Below are positions 27,840-38,002 of a stretch of DNA of 64,000 nt, piece by piece; position 1 is the first letter of the stretch; each line of letters starts with the position of its first letter. The DNA is from Sulfurimonas sp. HSL3-7 (lineage in GTDB: Bacteria > Campylobacterota > Campylobacteria > Campylobacterales > Sulfurimonadaceae). The notes below the pieces were generated by a model. That model saw only the letters and a list, made by a program, of their open reading frames with translations, made no database searches and had not been told where the DNA came from. The stretch is taken from contig NZ_CP147919.1 of NCBI RefSeq assembly GCF_039645985.1, forward strand, positions 496,001-560,000, written 5' to 3'. The translations under genes were made by a program, and so were the position numbers.

Positions 27840-29129
27840 TTACCTCTGCTGCAGCGAGATCAGCCTCTCTTTCTGCGAACGCGACATCTTCTTAATTTCC
27901 AACTCTCTTTTCAAAGCACTGCTTTTTGAGCGGTGTTTCTCCTCATAAACGACTTTAACGGGACGTCTTGCCTTGGTGTACTTGGCACCTTTCGGCGAGT
28001 TGTTGTGCTCGTCCAGGCGCTTGTCCAGCTCTTTGGCAATGCCGGTGTAGAAGCTGTTGTCGGAACACTGCAGGATATACAGGCTGTAAATATCATCCTC
28101 TTCAAGCGTGATGGTGTTGTTGAAAAATTGCAGGCCTGTCCCTGTCGGGATCTTTTTGTAAAGCAGCGGACTGTCGAGGTCGATATGGCTGAAGGCGTCG
28201 CTGTAAGCCATCACCAGCTGGGCGGTCAGGGCGATGGAGGTCGGCCCCTCCAGCATCGATCCCATCATGCATTTGACTCCGTTTTTACGGCAGTACTCGA
28301 TGATCTCGATCGCCCTGGATATTCCCCCGCACTTCATCAGTTTGATGTTGATGAGATCAGCCGCTCTGTTCTCGACGACCTTTTTGGCATCTTCCAGTGT
28401 AAAGACCGCCTCATCGGCCAATATCGCAATGGGACTTTTCTCGGTGATCTGTCGCAAACCTTCAATATCACTGCCGACCACCGGCTGCTCGATCAGCTCG
28501 ATGTTCAGCGGCGCGATCGCCTTGATGATATGCAGCGATTCGTCAACGTCCCACGCCTGGTTGGCATCGATCAGCAGACGCGCTTCGGGTACGGCTTCTC
28601 TAACAGTTTCGATGCGTGCTATATCGAGGCCGTCTCTTCCGCCGACTTTTACTTTGAGGATGTCAAAGCCGCGTCCATAGGCCTCTCTGGCATCGTCGGC
28701 CATCTCCTGCGGCGATTTCAGGCTGATCGTCACGGCGCTCTGAAGCGGTTTCGGTGATGCCCCCAGAAACGCAACAAGGGAGCTGTTGTCTGAAACAGCG
28801 GCGAGGTCGTACAGCGCCATGTCAACGGCCGCTTTGGCACTGCTGTTGCCTTTACAGCAGGTGTGCAGAAGCTTGAGCAGTCCGGTCAGCTCAAAAGTCT
28901 CTCCGACAAGCTTTGGCGCGATGCTCTTTTTGATGGTATGCGCAATCGTTTTGAGGCCTTCGCCCGTTATCGCCTTGGTGGCAGGCGCTGCACCGTAGCC
29001 GATGTTCGGGGTGTCGGTGTGAATAGCAATACGGATGTTCTCAACATCGTCCACTCTGCGAAGGGCGGTGATAAACGGAGTGCGCAGCGGGATCTTTTCG
29101 ATCTCAAGCGTAATATGCGTAATGATCAT
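27840..29129 (-). CDS. L-Ala-D/L-Glu (dipeptide) epimerase fused to a GIY-YIG domain
   Basis: 429 residues in one frame. Residues 1-~340 are an enolase-superfamily dipeptide epimerase: KVKVGG (catalytic KxK), DANQAW, ELIEQP and LADEAV (metal ligands) and IKLMKCGG (second Lys). Residues ~345-429 are a UPF0213-type GIY-YIG domain (YSLYILQCSDNSFYTGIAKELDKRLDEHN; KYTKARRPVKVVYEE). No stop or ribosome site separates them. The first part epimerises murein-derived Ala-Glu; the second is nuclease-like with unknown role. Last gene of the amidase-DUF819-epimerase operon, overlapping DUF819 by four bases. Confidence 0.88.
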   Translation of the reverse strand: MIITHITLEIEKIPLRTPFITALRRVDDVENIRIAIHTDTPNIGYGAAPATKAITGEGLKTIAHTIKKSIAPKLVGETFELTGLLKLLHTCCKGNSSAKAAVDMALYDLAAVSDNSSLVAFLGASPKPLQSAVTISLKSPQEMADDAREAYGRGFDILKVKVGGRDGLDIARIETVREAVPEARLLIDANQAWDVDESLHIIKAIAPLNIELIEQPVVGSDIEGLRQITEKSPIAILADEAVFTLEDAKKVVENRAADLINIKLMKCGGISRAIEIIEYCRKNGVKCMMGSMLEGPTSIALTAQLVMAYSDAFSHIDLDSPLLYKKIPTGTGLQFFNNTITLEEDDIYSLYILQCSDNSFYTGIAKELDKRLDEHNNSPKGAKYTKARRPVKVVYEEKHRSKSSALKRELEIKKMSRSQKERLISLQQR

Positions 29130-31443: not shown

Positions 31444-32193
31444 ATGGCAAAATATATTATTTTAGATACTGAGACGACGGGGGCGGGTGAAAAAGACCGT
31501 GTGATTCAATTGGGCTATATGGTGTTGGACCCGGGAAAGCCGACAGAGATTCATAATGAGCTCTGTTCCAGCGAGGTGCCGATAGAGATCGGTGCCATGG
31601 AGGTGCATAACATCACACCTGAGATGATCGAAGGCAAACCCCTCTGCATCGAGATAAGAGCCTATCAGCGTCTGATCGAGCTGAACAGTCCGGAAAACTA
31701 CATGATCATCCATAACGCCCCGTTTGATATCGGCATGCTTGAAAAAGAGGGATTTGCGCTGGAGATGAAGTTGATCGATACGCTTCGTGTGGCCAAACAT
31801 GTCTTCCCGGACTCGGAGTATCACCGTCTGCAATATTTTCGCTATGCATTGGAGCTCTACAAAGAGGAGGAGTCTGAAGCGGCAAAACTGGGTATCGAAC
31901 TCAAAGCGCATGATGCCCTGGGCGATGTCCTCTTTTTGAAACTCCTGCTTTCCAAGCTTCGCGAGGCCGTTGAAAAACAGTTTCCCGGTATGAACGCCGT
32001 TGAAAAGATGGTCGCGCTGACCAAAGAGCCGGTCTTTATTACCAAACCGATGCGTTTTGGAAAACACAAAGGCAAGACAATCCAGGAACTTGCACAGGAA
32101 GATGCAGGGTATCTACGCTGGATGATGGAGAATATGCAAAATCTTGATGAAGATGTACGCTATACGATACGAAAAGTACTGGAAGGGTATTGA
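31444..32193 (+). CDS. DEDDh 3'-5' exonuclease with ExoX-type C-terminal domain
   Basis: 249 residues. Exo I LDTETTG, Exo II HNAPFDIG and Exo III HDALGD (His four before Asp) define a DnaQ-like DEDDh nuclease. The C-terminal part MRFGKHKGKTIQELAQEDAGYLRWMMEN is the small domain found at the end of exodeoxyribonuclease X. Likely a DNA repair or proofreading-type nuclease acting on single-stranded ends. All catalytic residues are present. Confidence 0.9.
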   Translation: MAKYIILDTETTGAGEKDRVIQLGYMVLDPGKPTEIHNELCSSEVPIEIGAMEVHNITPEMIEGKPLCIEIRAYQRLIELNSPENYMIIHNAPFDIGMLEKEGFALEMKLIDTLRVAKHVFPDSEYHRLQYFRYALELYKEEESEAAKLGIELKAHDALGDVLFLKLLLSKLREAVEKQFPGMNAVEKMVALTKEPVFITKPMRFGKHKGKTIQELAQEDAGYLRWMMENMQNLDEDVRYTIRKVLEGY

Positions 32194-32547: not shown

Positions 32548-32811
32548 TTAAAACAGGTTTTTTGTAGAGATCTGGATCTCGCTCAAGGCATAGGCGGCGT
32601 CGCGGTGCCCTTCGCGGCGTGCCATCGTCCACCATTTTGCGGCCTGCTCGATGTCTTTCTCAACCCCTTCGCCGTCGTGACACATCAGACCGAGATAGTA
32701 TTGCGCCTCGGCGTTGCGCTGAAAGGCGCCAAAGGGATAGAGCATCTCATATGCTTCTTCAAATTTATCGTCGTTATAGAGGGCGATGCCGTTTGCGACA
32801 CTCTTTTCCAT
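32548..32811 (-). CDS. Sel1/TPR-like small repeat protein
   Basis: 87 residues. One TPR-like unit (GIALYNDDKFEEAYEMLYPFGAF) is followed by one clear Sel1 repeat (AEAQYYLGLMCHDGEGVEKDIEQAAKWWTMARREG). No signal peptide, so probably cytoplasmic; such repeats bind protein partners. It is divergent from the repeat-protein/MoxR/VWA operon, 75 bases away, and could be functionally linked to it. Confidence 0.75.
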   Translation of the reverse strand: MEKSVANGIALYNDDKFEEAYEMLYPFGAFQRNAEAQYYLGLMCHDGEGVEKDIEQAAKWWTMARREGHRDAAYALSEIQISTKNLF

Positions 32812-32886: not shown

Positions 32887-34236
32887 ATGAATTTTGATGC
32901 GTTAGAGAATAAGAACATTATGCTTTTCGGCAAAACCAGGGCATTGAGTGCGGATGAGTTTACGATGCAGCTTCGAAACCACAATATCCGCATTGTCAAT
33001 GATAGCACGGCGGATGTCGCCCTGATTGTTGAAGGGCGCCTGGTTAATCCGATAGAACAGGATCAGCTCGATAAACTCTATGAAGAGAGAGTCGCACCGA
33101 TGATCGAGATCGCCGACCTGGAAAAATGGTTGTGTGCCAGCATCGATGCCGATAAGCTTCTGATGAGCCTCAAGCTCAGTGGTGACCGCAACCGCCTGAT
33201 GGGGTACCTGCAAAACCCTTATATCTCCAACGCGTTTTTTTTGCGTCTTCTAAAACTCTACAACTGGGAAGGTCTCGGCTTTTTTGAAAGCGATGACAAC
33301 CGCGATATCACTGCCGCGCTGATCAGCCGCTTTTATGAGAACATCGAACGCAATCACAATGTCCAGTACGCCAATATGGGGATCATGCACCTGCTCCACC
33401 AAAGCAGTGATCCCGGGTTGACCGAGACGATCGCTCTGCTGGCACCGCTGCAGAATGCACTCAAAGAGGGGTGCGATAACTCGACACGGAAGATACTCAA
33501 TACGATCGCACTGCATCCGGCCACGTCCACAAAGGTGTTGAAACAGTGGCTCAAAAAGGGGAGTGACGCGATACAGATACTCATTGCCATGCGCCATGAT
33601 CTTGACCTGCAGCTGCAGCAGTATCTTCTCAACCTTAACAAAGCGGTCATCAATGAGGCACTCTCGTTGAACACCTCGATCGAACATGAGATCGCGGAGA
33701 TCCTGCTGGCGATGTTTCCGGAGAACATTGCCAAGCATATTGCTCTGGACGATGCGCTGTATCGCCATCTTGCTGAAGAGTACGCACTGGAGTTGGCGCA
33801 AAACCCGACCCTGACCCCGGCGATGCAAAAAGAGCTGCTGGGCGAAGATGAAGATGTTCAGGTTGCTCTTGCCGGCAATGCAAAGATCGACGACTCTGTT
33901 TTTAACGCCCTTCTGGAGAGTAAGAAGGTCGATGTACTGCGCAGGCTGATAGCGAATCCACAGATGCCGCAGGAGACACTGAAAGCGCTTTTCGAAGAAG
34001 ATGCAGAACGTCTCGGTGCCGATATCGCCGCCAATGCCAAAACCGATGTTGCCATCTTAAACCAGCTTGCCCAATCAGAAGATGTAGAAGTCCTGCTCGC
34101 GTTGGCTAAAAACCCTTCAACGCCTGTCGGACTGCTCTATCAGTTCCAGCTCGACAGGCGGCTGGAACGCGCCGTCAAAGAGAATCCGAGTTTCGGAAAA
34201 CATATCCAGCGCGATAATATCGGCTGGGATGTCTAA
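32887..34236 (+). CDS. Repeat protein (LRV/HEAT-like) with BRCT-like N-terminus, MoxR-operon partner
   Basis: 449 residues from ATG 32887. Residues 1-~60 (NIMLFGKTRALSADEFTMQL, IVNDSTADVALIVEG) resemble a BRCT fold. From ~290 to the end runs a series of ~24-residue helical repeats of leucine-rich-variant type (LAQNPTLTPAMQKELL; LAGNAKIDDSVFNALL; LIANPQMPQETLKALF; IAANAKTDVAILNQLA; LAKNPSTPVGLLYQF). It is probably a scaffold or adaptor. Eleven bases later comes a MoxR ATPase, then a VWA protein, forming an operon. Function unknown. The frame is open further upstream, but that extension lies across the divergent gene's promoter. Confidence 0.72.
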   Translation: MNFDALENKNIMLFGKTRALSADEFTMQLRNHNIRIVNDSTADVALIVEGRLVNPIEQDQLDKLYEERVAPMIEIADLEKWLCASIDADKLLMSLKLSGDRNRLMGYLQNPYISNAFFLRLLKLYNWEGLGFFESDDNRDITAALISRFYENIERNHNVQYANMGIMHLLHQSSDPGLTETIALLAPLQNALKEGCDNSTRKILNTIALHPATSTKVLKQWLKKGSDAIQILIAMRHDLDLQLQQYLLNLNKAVINEALSLNTSIEHEIAEILLAMFPENIAKHIALDDALYRHLAEEYALELAQNPTLTPAMQKELLGEDEDVQVALAGNAKIDDSVFNALLESKKVDVLRRLIANPQMPQETLKALFEEDAERLGADIAANAKTDVAILNQLAQSEDVEVLLALAKNPSTPVGLLYQFQLDRRLERAVKENPSFGKHIQRDNIGWDV

Positions 34237-34247
34237 AAGGAGAAGAT

Positions 34248-35243
34248 GTGTATTCAAAAGAGGTGACCAGCTCGTTAACGGCGATGATCAAAGCCCAGAT
34301 CCCGACCTTTCTCTGGGGCCCGCCGGGCATAGGCAAATCATCGATCGTCAAACAGATCGCACAGGCCAATGCGTACGAATTTATTGACCTGCGTCTCTCT
34401 TTGATGGACCCGACCGACCTCAAAGGGATCCCTTTTTATGATAAAGAGGCCCATCAGGCACTCTGGGCACCCCCCTCATTTCTGCCGCGCGAGGGCAGAG
34501 GGATCCTTTTTCTGGATGAGCTCAACTCCGCGCCGCCGGCGGTGCAGGCTTCGGCATACCAGCTGATACTCGACCGCAAAGTGGGCGAATACACTCTGCC
34601 CGAGGGATGGGCGATCATCGCCGCCGGTAACCGCGAAGGTGACCGCGGCGTGGTCTACCGCATGCCGTCGCCGCTGGCGAACCGTTTTGTGCATCTCGAG
34701 ATGGATGTGAATGTGGAAGACTGGCGTGACTGGGCCTATGGTGCGGGTATGGACGAACGTGTTATCGCCTACATCGGCTATAAAAGCGACGACCTCTTCT
34801 CTTTTGATCCGACGAAGAACGAGAAGAGCTTTGCCACACCTCGGAGCTGGGAGTTTGTCAGTTCCGTTCTCCGAAGCGAGATGGACGAGAAGCTGCTTTT
34901 GGAGACGATCGGCGGGGCAATCGGAAAAGACCGGGCGGTCCGTTTTCTGAGCTTTGCCAAGGTGATGCACAAACTCCCTGACATTGCGGCCATCCTCTCC
35001 GGCGGAGAAGGGGCGTATCCCGAAGAGGTGGAGGTGCTACATGCCCTTGCCACAGGGCTTGTCATGGCGATCAGAGAAAATTTCTCAAAAGAGCGCATGG
35101 ACAATCTGCTGCACTATACGCTCGGTCTGCAGAGTGAGTTTGCGGTAATGATCGTTCAGGACCTTCAGCGGGCGGGTTACACGATGGAAGACCAGAAAGT
35201 CTTTGACAAATGGGTAGCCAAGTTCGCCTACCTGCTCGCCTAG
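34248..35243 (+). CDS. MoxR-family AAA+ ATPase
   Basis: 331 residues. Walker A GPPGIGKSSIVKQIA (~24-38), Walker B GILFLDELNSAPPAVQAS, sensor 1 IIAAGNREGDRG and a C-terminal lid mark a MoxR AAA+ protein. The start is GTG 34248; the ATG two bases earlier is out of frame. MoxR ATPases work with VWA proteins to remodel or insert metals into target complexes, as in RavA/ViaA, NorQ/NorD and CbbQ/CbbO. The client here is unknown. Confidence 0.9.
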   Translation: MYSKEVTSSLTAMIKAQIPTFLWGPPGIGKSSIVKQIAQANAYEFIDLRLSLMDPTDLKGIPFYDKEAHQALWAPPSFLPREGRGILFLDELNSAPPAVQASAYQLILDRKVGEYTLPEGWAIIAAGNREGDRGVVYRMPSPLANRFVHLEMDVNVEDWRDWAYGAGMDERVIAYIGYKSDDLFSFDPTKNEKSFATPRSWEFVSSVLRSEMDEKLLLETIGGAIGKDRAVRFLSFAKVMHKLPDIAAILSGGEGAYPEEVEVLHALATGLVMAIRENFSKERMDNLLHYTLGLQSEFAVMIVQDLQRAGYTMEDQKVFDKWVAKFAYLLA

Positions 35244-35246
35244 ATC

Positions 35247-36440
35247 ATGACGCCCCGGCTCAAACAGAAGATCTCCGAAGCCAAGGCCAGACTGCTGGTC
35301 GATTACCCCTACTTCGGGACACTCGCTTCCAAACTCGAACTCCAGCAAAACGACAATATCCAGGCCTATCTGAGCGACGGTGTCCGATTTGAATATAACG
35401 ATGAGTATCTTCTCGATCTGACGCAGGACGAACTGGCCTTTGCCCTCTCCAACGGGGCGATGCATGCCGCGCTGGCGTATGAGAACCGTCAAAAAGGGCG
35501 CATGTCGTGGCTCTGGCAGCTGGCGACCGATCATGCCATCAATGCGATGCTCTCAGCCAACGGGCTGGAACCGCCGATAATGATCGACCTTGACCCCCGT
35601 TTTGAGGGGATGTATGCCGAAGAGATCTATGCGATTCTCAAAGATGAGATCAAAAACGAAGAGTTTGATGACGACGAATCAAACGAGACCGGCTTTAACG
35701 AAGAGAACAAGCGAAAGCAGCAGCAGATGAAAGACGCCGAGGGAAATCATGACCCCGACAAAAAGCGTGAAAAGATGGAGGTTGAGAACGTTGAACAGAA
35801 GATCGCCGAGGAGGAGATGTTCGAACAGTTTGCCAACGAAGCGCTGGAGAAGATCGCCGATCAGGGGGAGCTGCCGCTGGAGATCGAGCGTTTCTTTACG
35901 CTTACCGACAGCAGCAGGGTCGACTGGCGCAGAGAGCTCTATAACGCAATTGACCGCCACTACCACGATAACTACCGTATGATGCCGCCCTCGAAGAAGC
36001 TGCTCTATAGCGGTATCTACCTCCCTTCGCTCTACAGCGACACCCTTCGTCTGACGATCGCGATCGACAGCTCAGGCTCTGTCGATGAGCAGCTGCTCTC
36101 GCTTTTTATGAGCGAGGTCGAGGCGATCCTGATCCATTTTCCAAACTATGTGATCGACATGATCGTCTGCGACGCCAAGATCCAGAACTATCGGCAGTTT
36201 TTGACAGGCGAAGCCCTCGATATAGAGATCAAAGGGGGCGGGGGCACCGACTTCCGTCCGGTCTTCGATCGCATCGAAGAGCGCCTCGATGCGCCGTCGC
36301 TGCTGCTCTACTTCTCAGATACCAAAGGGAGCTTTCCTCAGAACGAACCGTTCTATGAAGTGATGTGGATCAGTGTAGAAGAGAGCGATGTCCCGTTCGG
36401 CAGGGTGCTGGTCATAGACAGAGATGAAGAGAAAGAGTGA
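35247..36440 (+). CDS. VWA protein with degenerate DUF2201-type metallopeptidase domain
   Basis: 397 residues, three bases after the MoxR gene. The N-terminal part matches the putative metallopeptidase domain that precedes VWA domains (ELAFALSNGAMHAALAYENR, WLWQLATDHAINAML). Where the family has HExxH this copy reads NGAMH, so the first His and the Glu are lost. A highly charged linker (~135-195) follows. The C-terminal VWA domain keeps the MIDAS motif IDSSGSVDE and GGGGTDFRPVF. It likely acts with the MoxR ATPase as an adaptor rather than a peptidase. Confidence 0.85.
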   Translation: MTPRLKQKISEAKARLLVDYPYFGTLASKLELQQNDNIQAYLSDGVRFEYNDEYLLDLTQDELAFALSNGAMHAALAYENRQKGRMSWLWQLATDHAINAMLSANGLEPPIMIDLDPRFEGMYAEEIYAILKDEIKNEEFDDDESNETGFNEENKRKQQQMKDAEGNHDPDKKREKMEVENVEQKIAEEEMFEQFANEALEKIADQGELPLEIERFFTLTDSSRVDWRRELYNAIDRHYHDNYRMMPPSKKLLYSGIYLPSLYSDTLRLTIAIDSSGSVDEQLLSLFMSEVEAILIHFPNYVIDMIVCDAKIQNYRQFLTGEALDIEIKGGGGTDFRPVFDRIEERLDAPSLLLYFSDTKGSFPQNEPFYEVMWISVEESDVPFGRVLVIDRDEEKE

Positions 36441-36727: not shown

Positions 36728-38002
36728 ATGTCCGAATACGAACGTATAACTTCTCTACTGGATACGAAACAGAACGTCTTTTTGACCGGCGGCGCCGGGA
36801 CCGGGAAGACGACACTGACGCGCAAGCTCATCGAGCATTATGCCGGTGAAGGCAAAAAGATAGCGAAGCTCGCGTCGACAGGGATGGCAGCGACCTTGAT
36901 CGGCGGGCAGACCCTGCACAGCTTTTTGGACCTCGGCATTGCCGATTCCATCGAGGAGCTGGAGCGTCAAGGCCGTTTAGAGATCAAGAAAAAGATCAAA
37001 AAGCTGGTTTCTTCGATGGATCTGATCATCATCGATGAGATCTCGATGGTGAGTGCACCGCTATTTGAGATGATCCGTCTTCGTCTGCTGCAGAGCGACT
37101 TCAAGGGGGCTCTTTTGGCGGTGGGGGATTTTCTTCAATTGCCGCCCGTTGTCAGAGGCTACGGTGAGATCTATTTTGCTTTTGAGTCGGAGAGCTGGCG
37201 GCGGTTCGATTTTAAGACCGTCACTCTGGAGATCAATCACCGAAGCGATGACAGGGATTTTGTAAAGGTGTTGGATAAAGTGCGGTTTGCCGAGATCGGG
37301 GATGCGGAGCATCACTATCTGCATCATCTCATCAAGCCGGTCGGTGAAGACCTGAGCCAATACACCTATCTTTACGGTAAAAATAATTCTGCATCGCGTC
37401 ACAATGAAGCGCAGCTTGCATTTATAGACAGCGATGAGGTGACGTATGAAGTACAGCTTGTCAGGCATGATAAAAACACAAATGACAAAGAGGTCGAGCG
37501 GTTTTTGAACGATGCGCGCATCGAGCCGAAATTAAAGCTCAAAGTGGGCGCCCCCGTGCTTTTTACCCGTAATGCCTGGAACTACTTTAACGGCGAACGG
37601 GGAGAAATCGTTCGTCTGAACGATGAGATCGTTTATGTCGAGAAGAGTGACGGTGTCGTTGTAAAGCTTGAACGCTCCGCCATGACCAAGACTCAGTGGA
37701 AAGAGAAGAGTGTCGAGGGGAAAAAGGAGATGATGGAAGAGCCAAAGTTCAGTGTCCATCAATTTCCGATTACCCTGGCCTTCGCCATTACGATCCACAA
37801 ATCGCAGGGGATGAGCATCGAAGATCTGATCATTGACACCACGGAGATCTTTGCCCCGTCGCAGTTCTATGTGGCACTCTCAAGAGCGACTTCCCCGCAC
37901 CGTTTGATCCTGAAACAGCCGCTGACTAACTGGTGCAATTTGGCCTTTGTTCACCATAAAGCGTTAGACTTCGTCCATGATCAAAGGGAACGCCATGAAT
38001 GA
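36728..38002 (+). CDS. PIF1-like superfamily 1 DNA helicase
   Basis: 424 residues. Walker A TGGAGTGKTTLTRK, motif Ia ASTGMAATLIGGQTLHSFL, DEISM (motif II), GDFLQLPPV (motif III) and the C-terminal HKSQGMSIEDL / VALSRATSP (motifs V-VI) are complete. PIF1-type helicases unwind 5'-3' and resolve G-quadruplexes or R-loops. It overlaps the small downstream gene by eight bases. It starts ATG with a nearby AT-rich promoter region (TAAAATATGATTAA). Confidence 0.92.
   Translation: MSEYERITSLLDTKQNVFLTGGAGTGKTTLTRKLIEHYAGEGKKIAKLASTGMAATLIGGQTLHSFLDLGIADSIEELERQGRLEIKKKIKKLVSSMDLIIIDEISMVSAPLFEMIRLRLLQSDFKGALLAVGDFLQLPPVVRGYGEIYFAFESESWRRFDFKTVTLEINHRSDDRDFVKVLDKVRFAEIGDAEHHYLHHLIKPVGEDLSQYTYLYGKNNSASRHNEAQLAFIDSDEVTYEVQLVRHDKNTNDKEVERFLNDARIEPKLKLKVGAPVLFTRNAWNYFNGERGEIVRLNDEIVYVEKSDGVVVKLERSAMTKTQWKEKSVEGKKEMMEEPKFSVHQFPITLAFAITIHKSQGMSIEDLIIDTTEIFAPSQFYVALSRATSPHRLILKQPLTNWCNLAFVHHKALDFVHDQRERHE

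Follow-up and report, generated by a model that had tools for sequence, protein, structure and literature searches.

The 64,000-nucleotide window analyzed here (contig NZ_CP147919.1, positions 496,001 to 560,000; G000:C1:496001-560000) belongs to the complete 2.87-Mb genome of Sulfurimonas sp. HSL3-7. It contains a trio of genes that encode a BRCT-LRV repeat protein, a MoxR-type AAA+ ATPase, and a DUF2201-type VWA protein that resembles a metallopeptidase with a lost active site. The three genes form a genuine unit that is conserved among sulfur-oxidizing Campylobacterota. It is best read as a NorQD-like remodeling machine in which the BRCT-LRV protein would serve as the client adaptor, a reading to which a probability of roughly 0.55 is given. 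The tight packing described in the first-pass annotation, with 11 bases between the repeat gene and MoxR and 3 bases between MoxR and VWA, is borne out, and the coordinates, open reading frames (ORFs), and Pfam domains agree.

Conservation of the trio

A profile built from ten repeat proteins identified 128 relatives in named genomes, and the best 80 of these 128 were used for locus counts. These 80 come from Campylobacterota lineages or from metagenome-assembled genomes named 'bacterium' that resemble them. In addition, 397 Campylobacterota genomes were surveyed across the phylum. The first-pass annotation had let its three-part machine stand or fall with conservation across Campylobacterota, in particular with the repeat gene being found beside MoxR/VWA in most relatives. 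The repeat gene is found there, since MoxR directly follows it in all 77 loci where the contig extends far enough (gap -86 to +75) and lies no more than 1.2 kb downstream in 62 of the 69 surveyed genomes that carry it. MoxR was not found by search in two of the 69; in one of these, G177, a MoxR fragment adjoins the repeat gene and ends at an assembly gap. The VWA gene starts at most 30 bp after MoxR in 46 of 55 loci, and 231-4185 bp separate the two in the other nine. Ten long loci show no VWA gene, or just its start, within 2-5 kb of sequence.

Most Campylobacterota are without the whole system, and one family has the trio in 43 of its 52 genomes. Genomes with a strong MoxR relative and no repeat gene all have that MoxR in one separate nif-linked clade. 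A plasmid search with the repeat family returned partial LRV matches only.

The predicted ORFs of the repeat gene and MoxR overlap in 50 of the 77 loci. Such frequent overlap and near-obligate linkage would suit a dedicated client equally well, i.e., a scaffold or regulator that is assembled, loaded, or released by MoxR-VWA. LRV proteins also occur outside such operons, and the same genome encodes a 204-residue LRV-only protein directly upstream of a gene for a NUBPL/Mrp-type iron-transfer nucleoside triphosphatase (G000:C1 about 2787304-2789331; L091:4305-6332). Known MoxR-VWA clients, however, are mostly enzymes or large complexes, and the repeat protein possesses no recognized enzymatic domain. 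Its variable solenoid and conserved ends look like a binding device. A client role for the repeat protein itself is considered rather unlikely.

The VWA protein and the MoxR ATPase

The VWA protein matches DUF2201_N (E 2.5e-27, 96.6 bits) and DUF2201 (E 2.7e-22, 79.6 bits), both above the cut-off. Its predicted structure is made up of an N-domain, a disordered acidic linker, and a VWA domain. None of the five residues of the metal ion-dependent adhesion site (MIDAS; DxSxS-T-D) varies among the 39 trio homologues compared. The HExxH motif is absent from the same 39 proteins: none has His at residue 77, and just five have Glu at residue 74. It is also missing from every A-, B-, and C-type Campylobacterota VWA protein checked. 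In the homologues outside the phylum (phages, Thermus, cyanobacteria, proteobacteria, and Streptomyces), HExxH is present in ten out of ten. Because the motif is missing in one set and kept in the other, the Campylobacterota lineage has probably lost protease activity, and the VWA protein is probably non-proteolytic. An active metallopeptidase was rejected for the window protein on the basis of the missing motif, a loss that the first-pass annotation had overlooked. Foldseek gives weak matches for the model (E about 0.03), including archaeal selecase (probability 0.90-0.94) and the NorQD complex (probability 0.75).

The MoxR protein is recognized by AAA_3 (31.8 bits, cut-off 27) and AAA_5 (31.3 bits, cut-off 22). 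It has the AAA+ core expected of a MoxR protein, with Walker A and Walker B motifs, and a VWA gene lies next door.

The repeat protein

The description of a 449-residue LRV/HEAT-like repeat protein in the first-pass annotation holds for its length and its LRV-type repeats, and it omitted an N-terminal BRCT-like domain. Pfam LRV_2 matches the window protein at E 6e-7 (29.8 bits against a cut-off of 27) and is found in nine of ten homologues. The AlphaFold model, made with 56 homologues, has a mean predicted local distance difference test score (pLDDT) of 92. Residues 2-84 of the model match the BRCT region of the bacterial DNA ligase DnlJ (9a6z_B 592-668; Z 9.3, root-mean-square deviation 2.3 Å, 77 residues). 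The predicted head fits a BRCT fold, and the order of strands and helices agrees. HHalign of the head against the Campylobacterota LigA BRCT is collinear and weak (E 3e-4 to 8e-4, probability 25-40%). Pfam BRCT gives no match above the cut-off among ten homologues and a single match at E 0.085. The C-terminal part of the model matches HEAT, ARM, and LRV solenoids, including 1lrv (Z 7.6), a likeness that may reflect just a common arrangement.

Conservation within the repeat protein is highest in the helical domain (residues 87-187) and the C-terminal tail (residues 401-449). Both the sequence and the length of the solenoid differ among homologues, and the proteins range from 384 to 452 amino acids, with groups near 387, 414, and 449. 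Only two cysteines are present. No enzymatic, effector, or peptidase domain is recognized in the protein, only LRV and BRCT-like regions. An adaptor role is plausible for a repeat protein of this anatomy. The first-pass annotation had suggested a substrate adaptor, and the conserved ends and variable solenoid fit that suggestion.

The resemblance of the head to that of DNA ligase would also suit a machine that works on DNA-bound complexes in repair or replication. The trio is flanked by an exonuclease gene and a Pif1-like helicase gene, which have homologues in 40 of 80 and 38 of 80 related loci, respectively. A DUF2201 gene adjoins a DNA helicase gene in an N4-like phage, and helicase genes flank a trio in Thermus. 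However, the exonuclease and helicase genes are not part of the tightly packed three-gene group and are missing in the more distant trios that were inspected (L075, L077-L082), and the linkage may be plain synteny. In addition, at the phosphopeptide pocket a low-confidence alignment places Phe14 of the window protein opposite the Thr of the 'TG' motif in LigA. A role on DNA is regarded as improbable.

Paralogous MoxR-DUF2201 pairs and the nif link

The host genome contains two further MoxR-DUF2201 pairs outside the window, B and C, that the first-pass annotation did not see. Both are linked to nif genes. Among the 397 genomes, nifH is present in 25 of the 27 genomes with pair B (Fisher p 3e-18) and in 29 of the 31 with pair C (Fisher p 1e-21). 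The exceptions without nifH are the same two draft genomes for B and C. In many genomes, the host genome among them, pair B and nifH are 10-50 kb apart. Pair C lies beside nifQ, in a cluster that also encodes an ODP/flavodoxin protein and a nitroreductase-family protein.

In the MoxR tree, B forms one clade (support 100/99) that is sister to the MoxR of the G074 trio (100/100) and falls within the repeat-bearing group, some branches near the base of which have low support (88/34). C falls outside this group. Because the B MoxR is nested within the repeat-bearing clade, the simplest reading, which is not proof, is that pair B descends from a trio that lost its repeat gene and joined the nif region. 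A limited literature search found no papers that name pair B or C as nitrogenase factors.

Proposed machine and its client

In the non-proteolytic remodeling machine proposed here, the three proteins would form a complex with MoxR as the ATP-driven ring. The DUF2201 protein would be the VWA co-chaperone, composed of the N-terminal pseudo-metallopeptidase domain, the acidic disordered linker, and the MIDAS-bearing VWA domain. As in NorQD, hydrolysis of ATP would shift the VWA domain against the N-domain and so put a bound target under strain. The head, the helical domain, and the C-terminal tail of the adaptor, which are conserved, may bind either MoxR or VWA as a constant partner, and the variable LRV solenoid would grip the client. 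The client gene would be located elsewhere in the genome.

The likeliest client class is a complex metalloenzyme or a large assembly, because the nearest relatives of the trio are nif-linked. Nitrogenase itself was rejected as the client of the window trio since no nifH association is seen within the family. [NiFe] hydrogenase was considered because a hypB-like gene stands beside the repeat gene in two genomes, and it was rejected since hydrogenase presence does not track the trio. These hypB-like genes (G177, L200:4384-6579; G335, L204:2954-5148), and a MobB-like gene near the repeat gene in G285 (L206:3064-6026), accompany unusual or broken trios; they are three cases in all and were named by eye from sequence.

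Several findings weigh against a remodeling machine guided by an adaptor. The first-pass annotation noted no adjoining client gene. In the window the flanks are exonuclease and helicase genes, and the lack of an adjoining client extends to relatives. No conserved client gene lies near the trio in the window or in relatives, and beyond the trio no gene is conserved across families. No metalloenzyme gene adjoins the trio in the window, and none is conserved beside it in relatives; the operon arrangement of the NorQD type is not seen. Within the family, nifH is present in 24 of 43 genomes with the trio and in three of nine without it (p 0.28), and the trio does not follow [NiFe] hydrogenase either. 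The model of the VWA protein is only moderate (pLDDT 74.6, predicted template modeling score 0.49). Other genes separate MoxR from VWA in about 19 of the 65 loci with enough sequence, and in five of the 69 genomes with the repeat gene, MoxR is elsewhere in the genome. Strict co-expression of the trio is therefore not required.

The genes between MoxR and VWA are varied and, as named by eye, include restriction-modification, TerC-like, uracil-DNA-glycosylase-like, and ferritin-like genes. In L145, L151, L155, and L163, restriction-modification-like and other genes follow MoxR at the expected place of VWA, which looks like an insertion site. Restriction-modification genes after MoxR in several relatives would fit a conflict or defense module of the MoxR-VWA ternary type, in which third components are known (PMC7159879). 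Against this, PADLOC gives no solid match for the trio, the bpMoxR profile stays below its cut-off (20.1 versus 27 bits), and no effector domain is found. The trio is also common within one family, and the inserts vary. A defense function is considered very unlikely.

A broader scenario joins the trio and its paralogues. A protease-dead descendant of a metallopeptidase-VWA/MoxR system may have turned to adaptor-guided cofactor insertion in Campylobacterota. The BRCT-LRV form would serve some metalloenzyme or respiratory complex, and the adaptor-less pair B and its cousin C would be nitrogenase-maturation factors, so far undescribed. This scenario is speculative and, on balance, doubtful.

MoxR-VWA pairs are widespread, and few have known clients. 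The trio is a compact example that combines a dedicated third protein with natural variants, B and C, lacking it. These variants give a strong lead on nitrogenase as their client class, and the comparison of the trio with B and C makes dependence on the adaptor testable. Through loss of its zinc site, it seems, a protease-linked AAA+ machine can turn into a pure remodeler.

Neighboring genes and other features

Positions of the trio, its domains and motifs, and the neighboring genes are given in Table 1. The divergent Sel1 gene reported just upstream by the first-pass annotation is present, and it lies 75 bp from the repeat gene. Of the 80 related loci, 23 have a Sel1 homologue on the upstream side of the repeat gene. 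Because these homologues are mostly divergent and adjacent at 40-132 bp, a promoter region in common between Sel1 and the repeat gene is possible.

Table 1. Features of the trio and its surroundings. Positions refer to the window unless a genome coordinate is given.
Feature	Position	Strand	Basis or remark
BRCT-LRV repeat protein, 449 aa, proposed client adaptor	32887..34236	+	ORF, ATG start
BRCT-fold head, residues 1-86	32887..33144	+	structure match to DnlJ; HHalign to LigA BRCT
Helical domain, residues 87-187	33145..33447	+	43/101 columns at >=90% identity in 56 homologues
LRV/HEAT-like solenoid, residues about 188-400	33448..34086	+	two-helix repeats in model; 1lrv match
MoxR-type AAA+ ATPase, 331 aa	34248..35243	+	ORF, GTG start
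Walker A, GPPGIGKS	34317..34340	+	read in translation
Walker B, ILFLDE	34503..34520	+	read in translation
Pseudo-metallopeptidase-VWA protein (DUF2201-type), 397 aa	35247..36440	+	ORF, ATG start
Degenerate HExxH site, HAALA, residues 73-77	35463..35477	+	
VWA domain, intact MIDAS (D274, S276, S278, T334, D358)	36051..36419	+	
Divergent Sel1-repeat protein, 87 aa, neighbor, membership unproven	32548..32811	-	Pfam Sel1 E 1.8e-10
RNase T/ExoX-like exonuclease gene, upstream of trio	31444-32193		
Pif1-like helicase gene, downstream of trio	36728-38002		
MoxR-DUF2201 pair B (L083)	G000:C1:2679029-2681169		outside window
MoxR-DUF2201 pair C (L084)	G000:C1:2626084-2628154		outside window

Elsewhere in the window (27840-29129, minus strand), one reading frame joins a dipeptide-epimerase-like protein of the enolase superfamily to a GIY-YIG domain (Pfam E 6.1e-16). 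Its relatives in 24 loci have no GIY-YIG extension, and the full-length ones end near 340-365 amino acids.

Comparison with known systems

The NorQ-NorD and CbbQ-CbbO systems share with the trio a MoxR ring and a VWA partner in which a disordered linker joins an N-domain to a C-terminal VWA domain with a MIDAS. NorQD is involved in ATP-driven remodeling for metal insertion (PMC9976466, PMC13036017). An intact MIDAS and the NorQ ATPase are required; client activity depends on the MIDAS, and ring binding does not (PMC9976466). A finger of the VWA domain reaches into the MoxR pore, and the NorD linker between N-domain and VWA is strained by ATP hydrolysis so that the client opens (PMC13036017). 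Unlike in these systems, the N-domain of the window protein is a pseudo-metallopeptidase (DUF2201_N), an extra BRCT-LRV protein is present, and no client gene adjoins.

RavA-ViaA is also a MoxR and VWA pair and has a chaperone-like role on respiratory enzymes (PMC10585395). RavA identity was rejected for the window MoxR, which scores 13.9 bits against the NCBIfam RavA cut-off of 681.

DUF2201-VWA relatives are found in 571 phage records. Group 2.2 jumbo phages encode a MoxR and an N-terminal metallopeptidase-vWA protein described as a chaperone system (PMC7824862), and gp25 of N4, a 'vWFA' gene, belongs to the core set of N4-like phages (PMC4193335). The architecture of the window VWA protein is like that of these phage proteins, with about 29% identity over 98% of the VWA protein in the best phage matches. 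However, the two phage proteins checked keep HExxH, and a BRCT-LRV protein was not seen next to them. DUF2201 is mentioned in four papers and stands in the title or abstract of none of them.

On a Thermus oshimai plasmid, MoxR overlaps the gene of an LRV protein that has no BRCT head, and a DUF2201 gene with HExxH follows MoxR. The pairing of an LRV protein with the MoxR-DUF2201 machine is therefore not unique to Campylobacterota. The LRV protein of Azotobacter vinelandii (1lrv), which has a 4Fe-4S domain, shares the LRV solenoid, whereas the window protein adds a BRCT head. Proteobacterial plasmids encode, in this order, MoxR, a protein of ~300 amino acids, and DUF2201 (L183:5110-6027, L185:5049-5948, L186:5106-6032). 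The middle protein is possibly another third component, and the two that were scanned (L183, L185) have no Pfam match.

MoxR-vWA-centric ternary systems likewise combine MoxR and VWA with a dedicated third protein, and their described third components are VMAP, iSTAND, FtsH, and beta-propeller proteins (PMC7159879). The third protein of the window is none of these types, its VWA protein is of the DUF2201 type, and its host belongs to the Campylobacterota. The trio is a variant of this known ternary theme, with a BRCT-LRV third protein.

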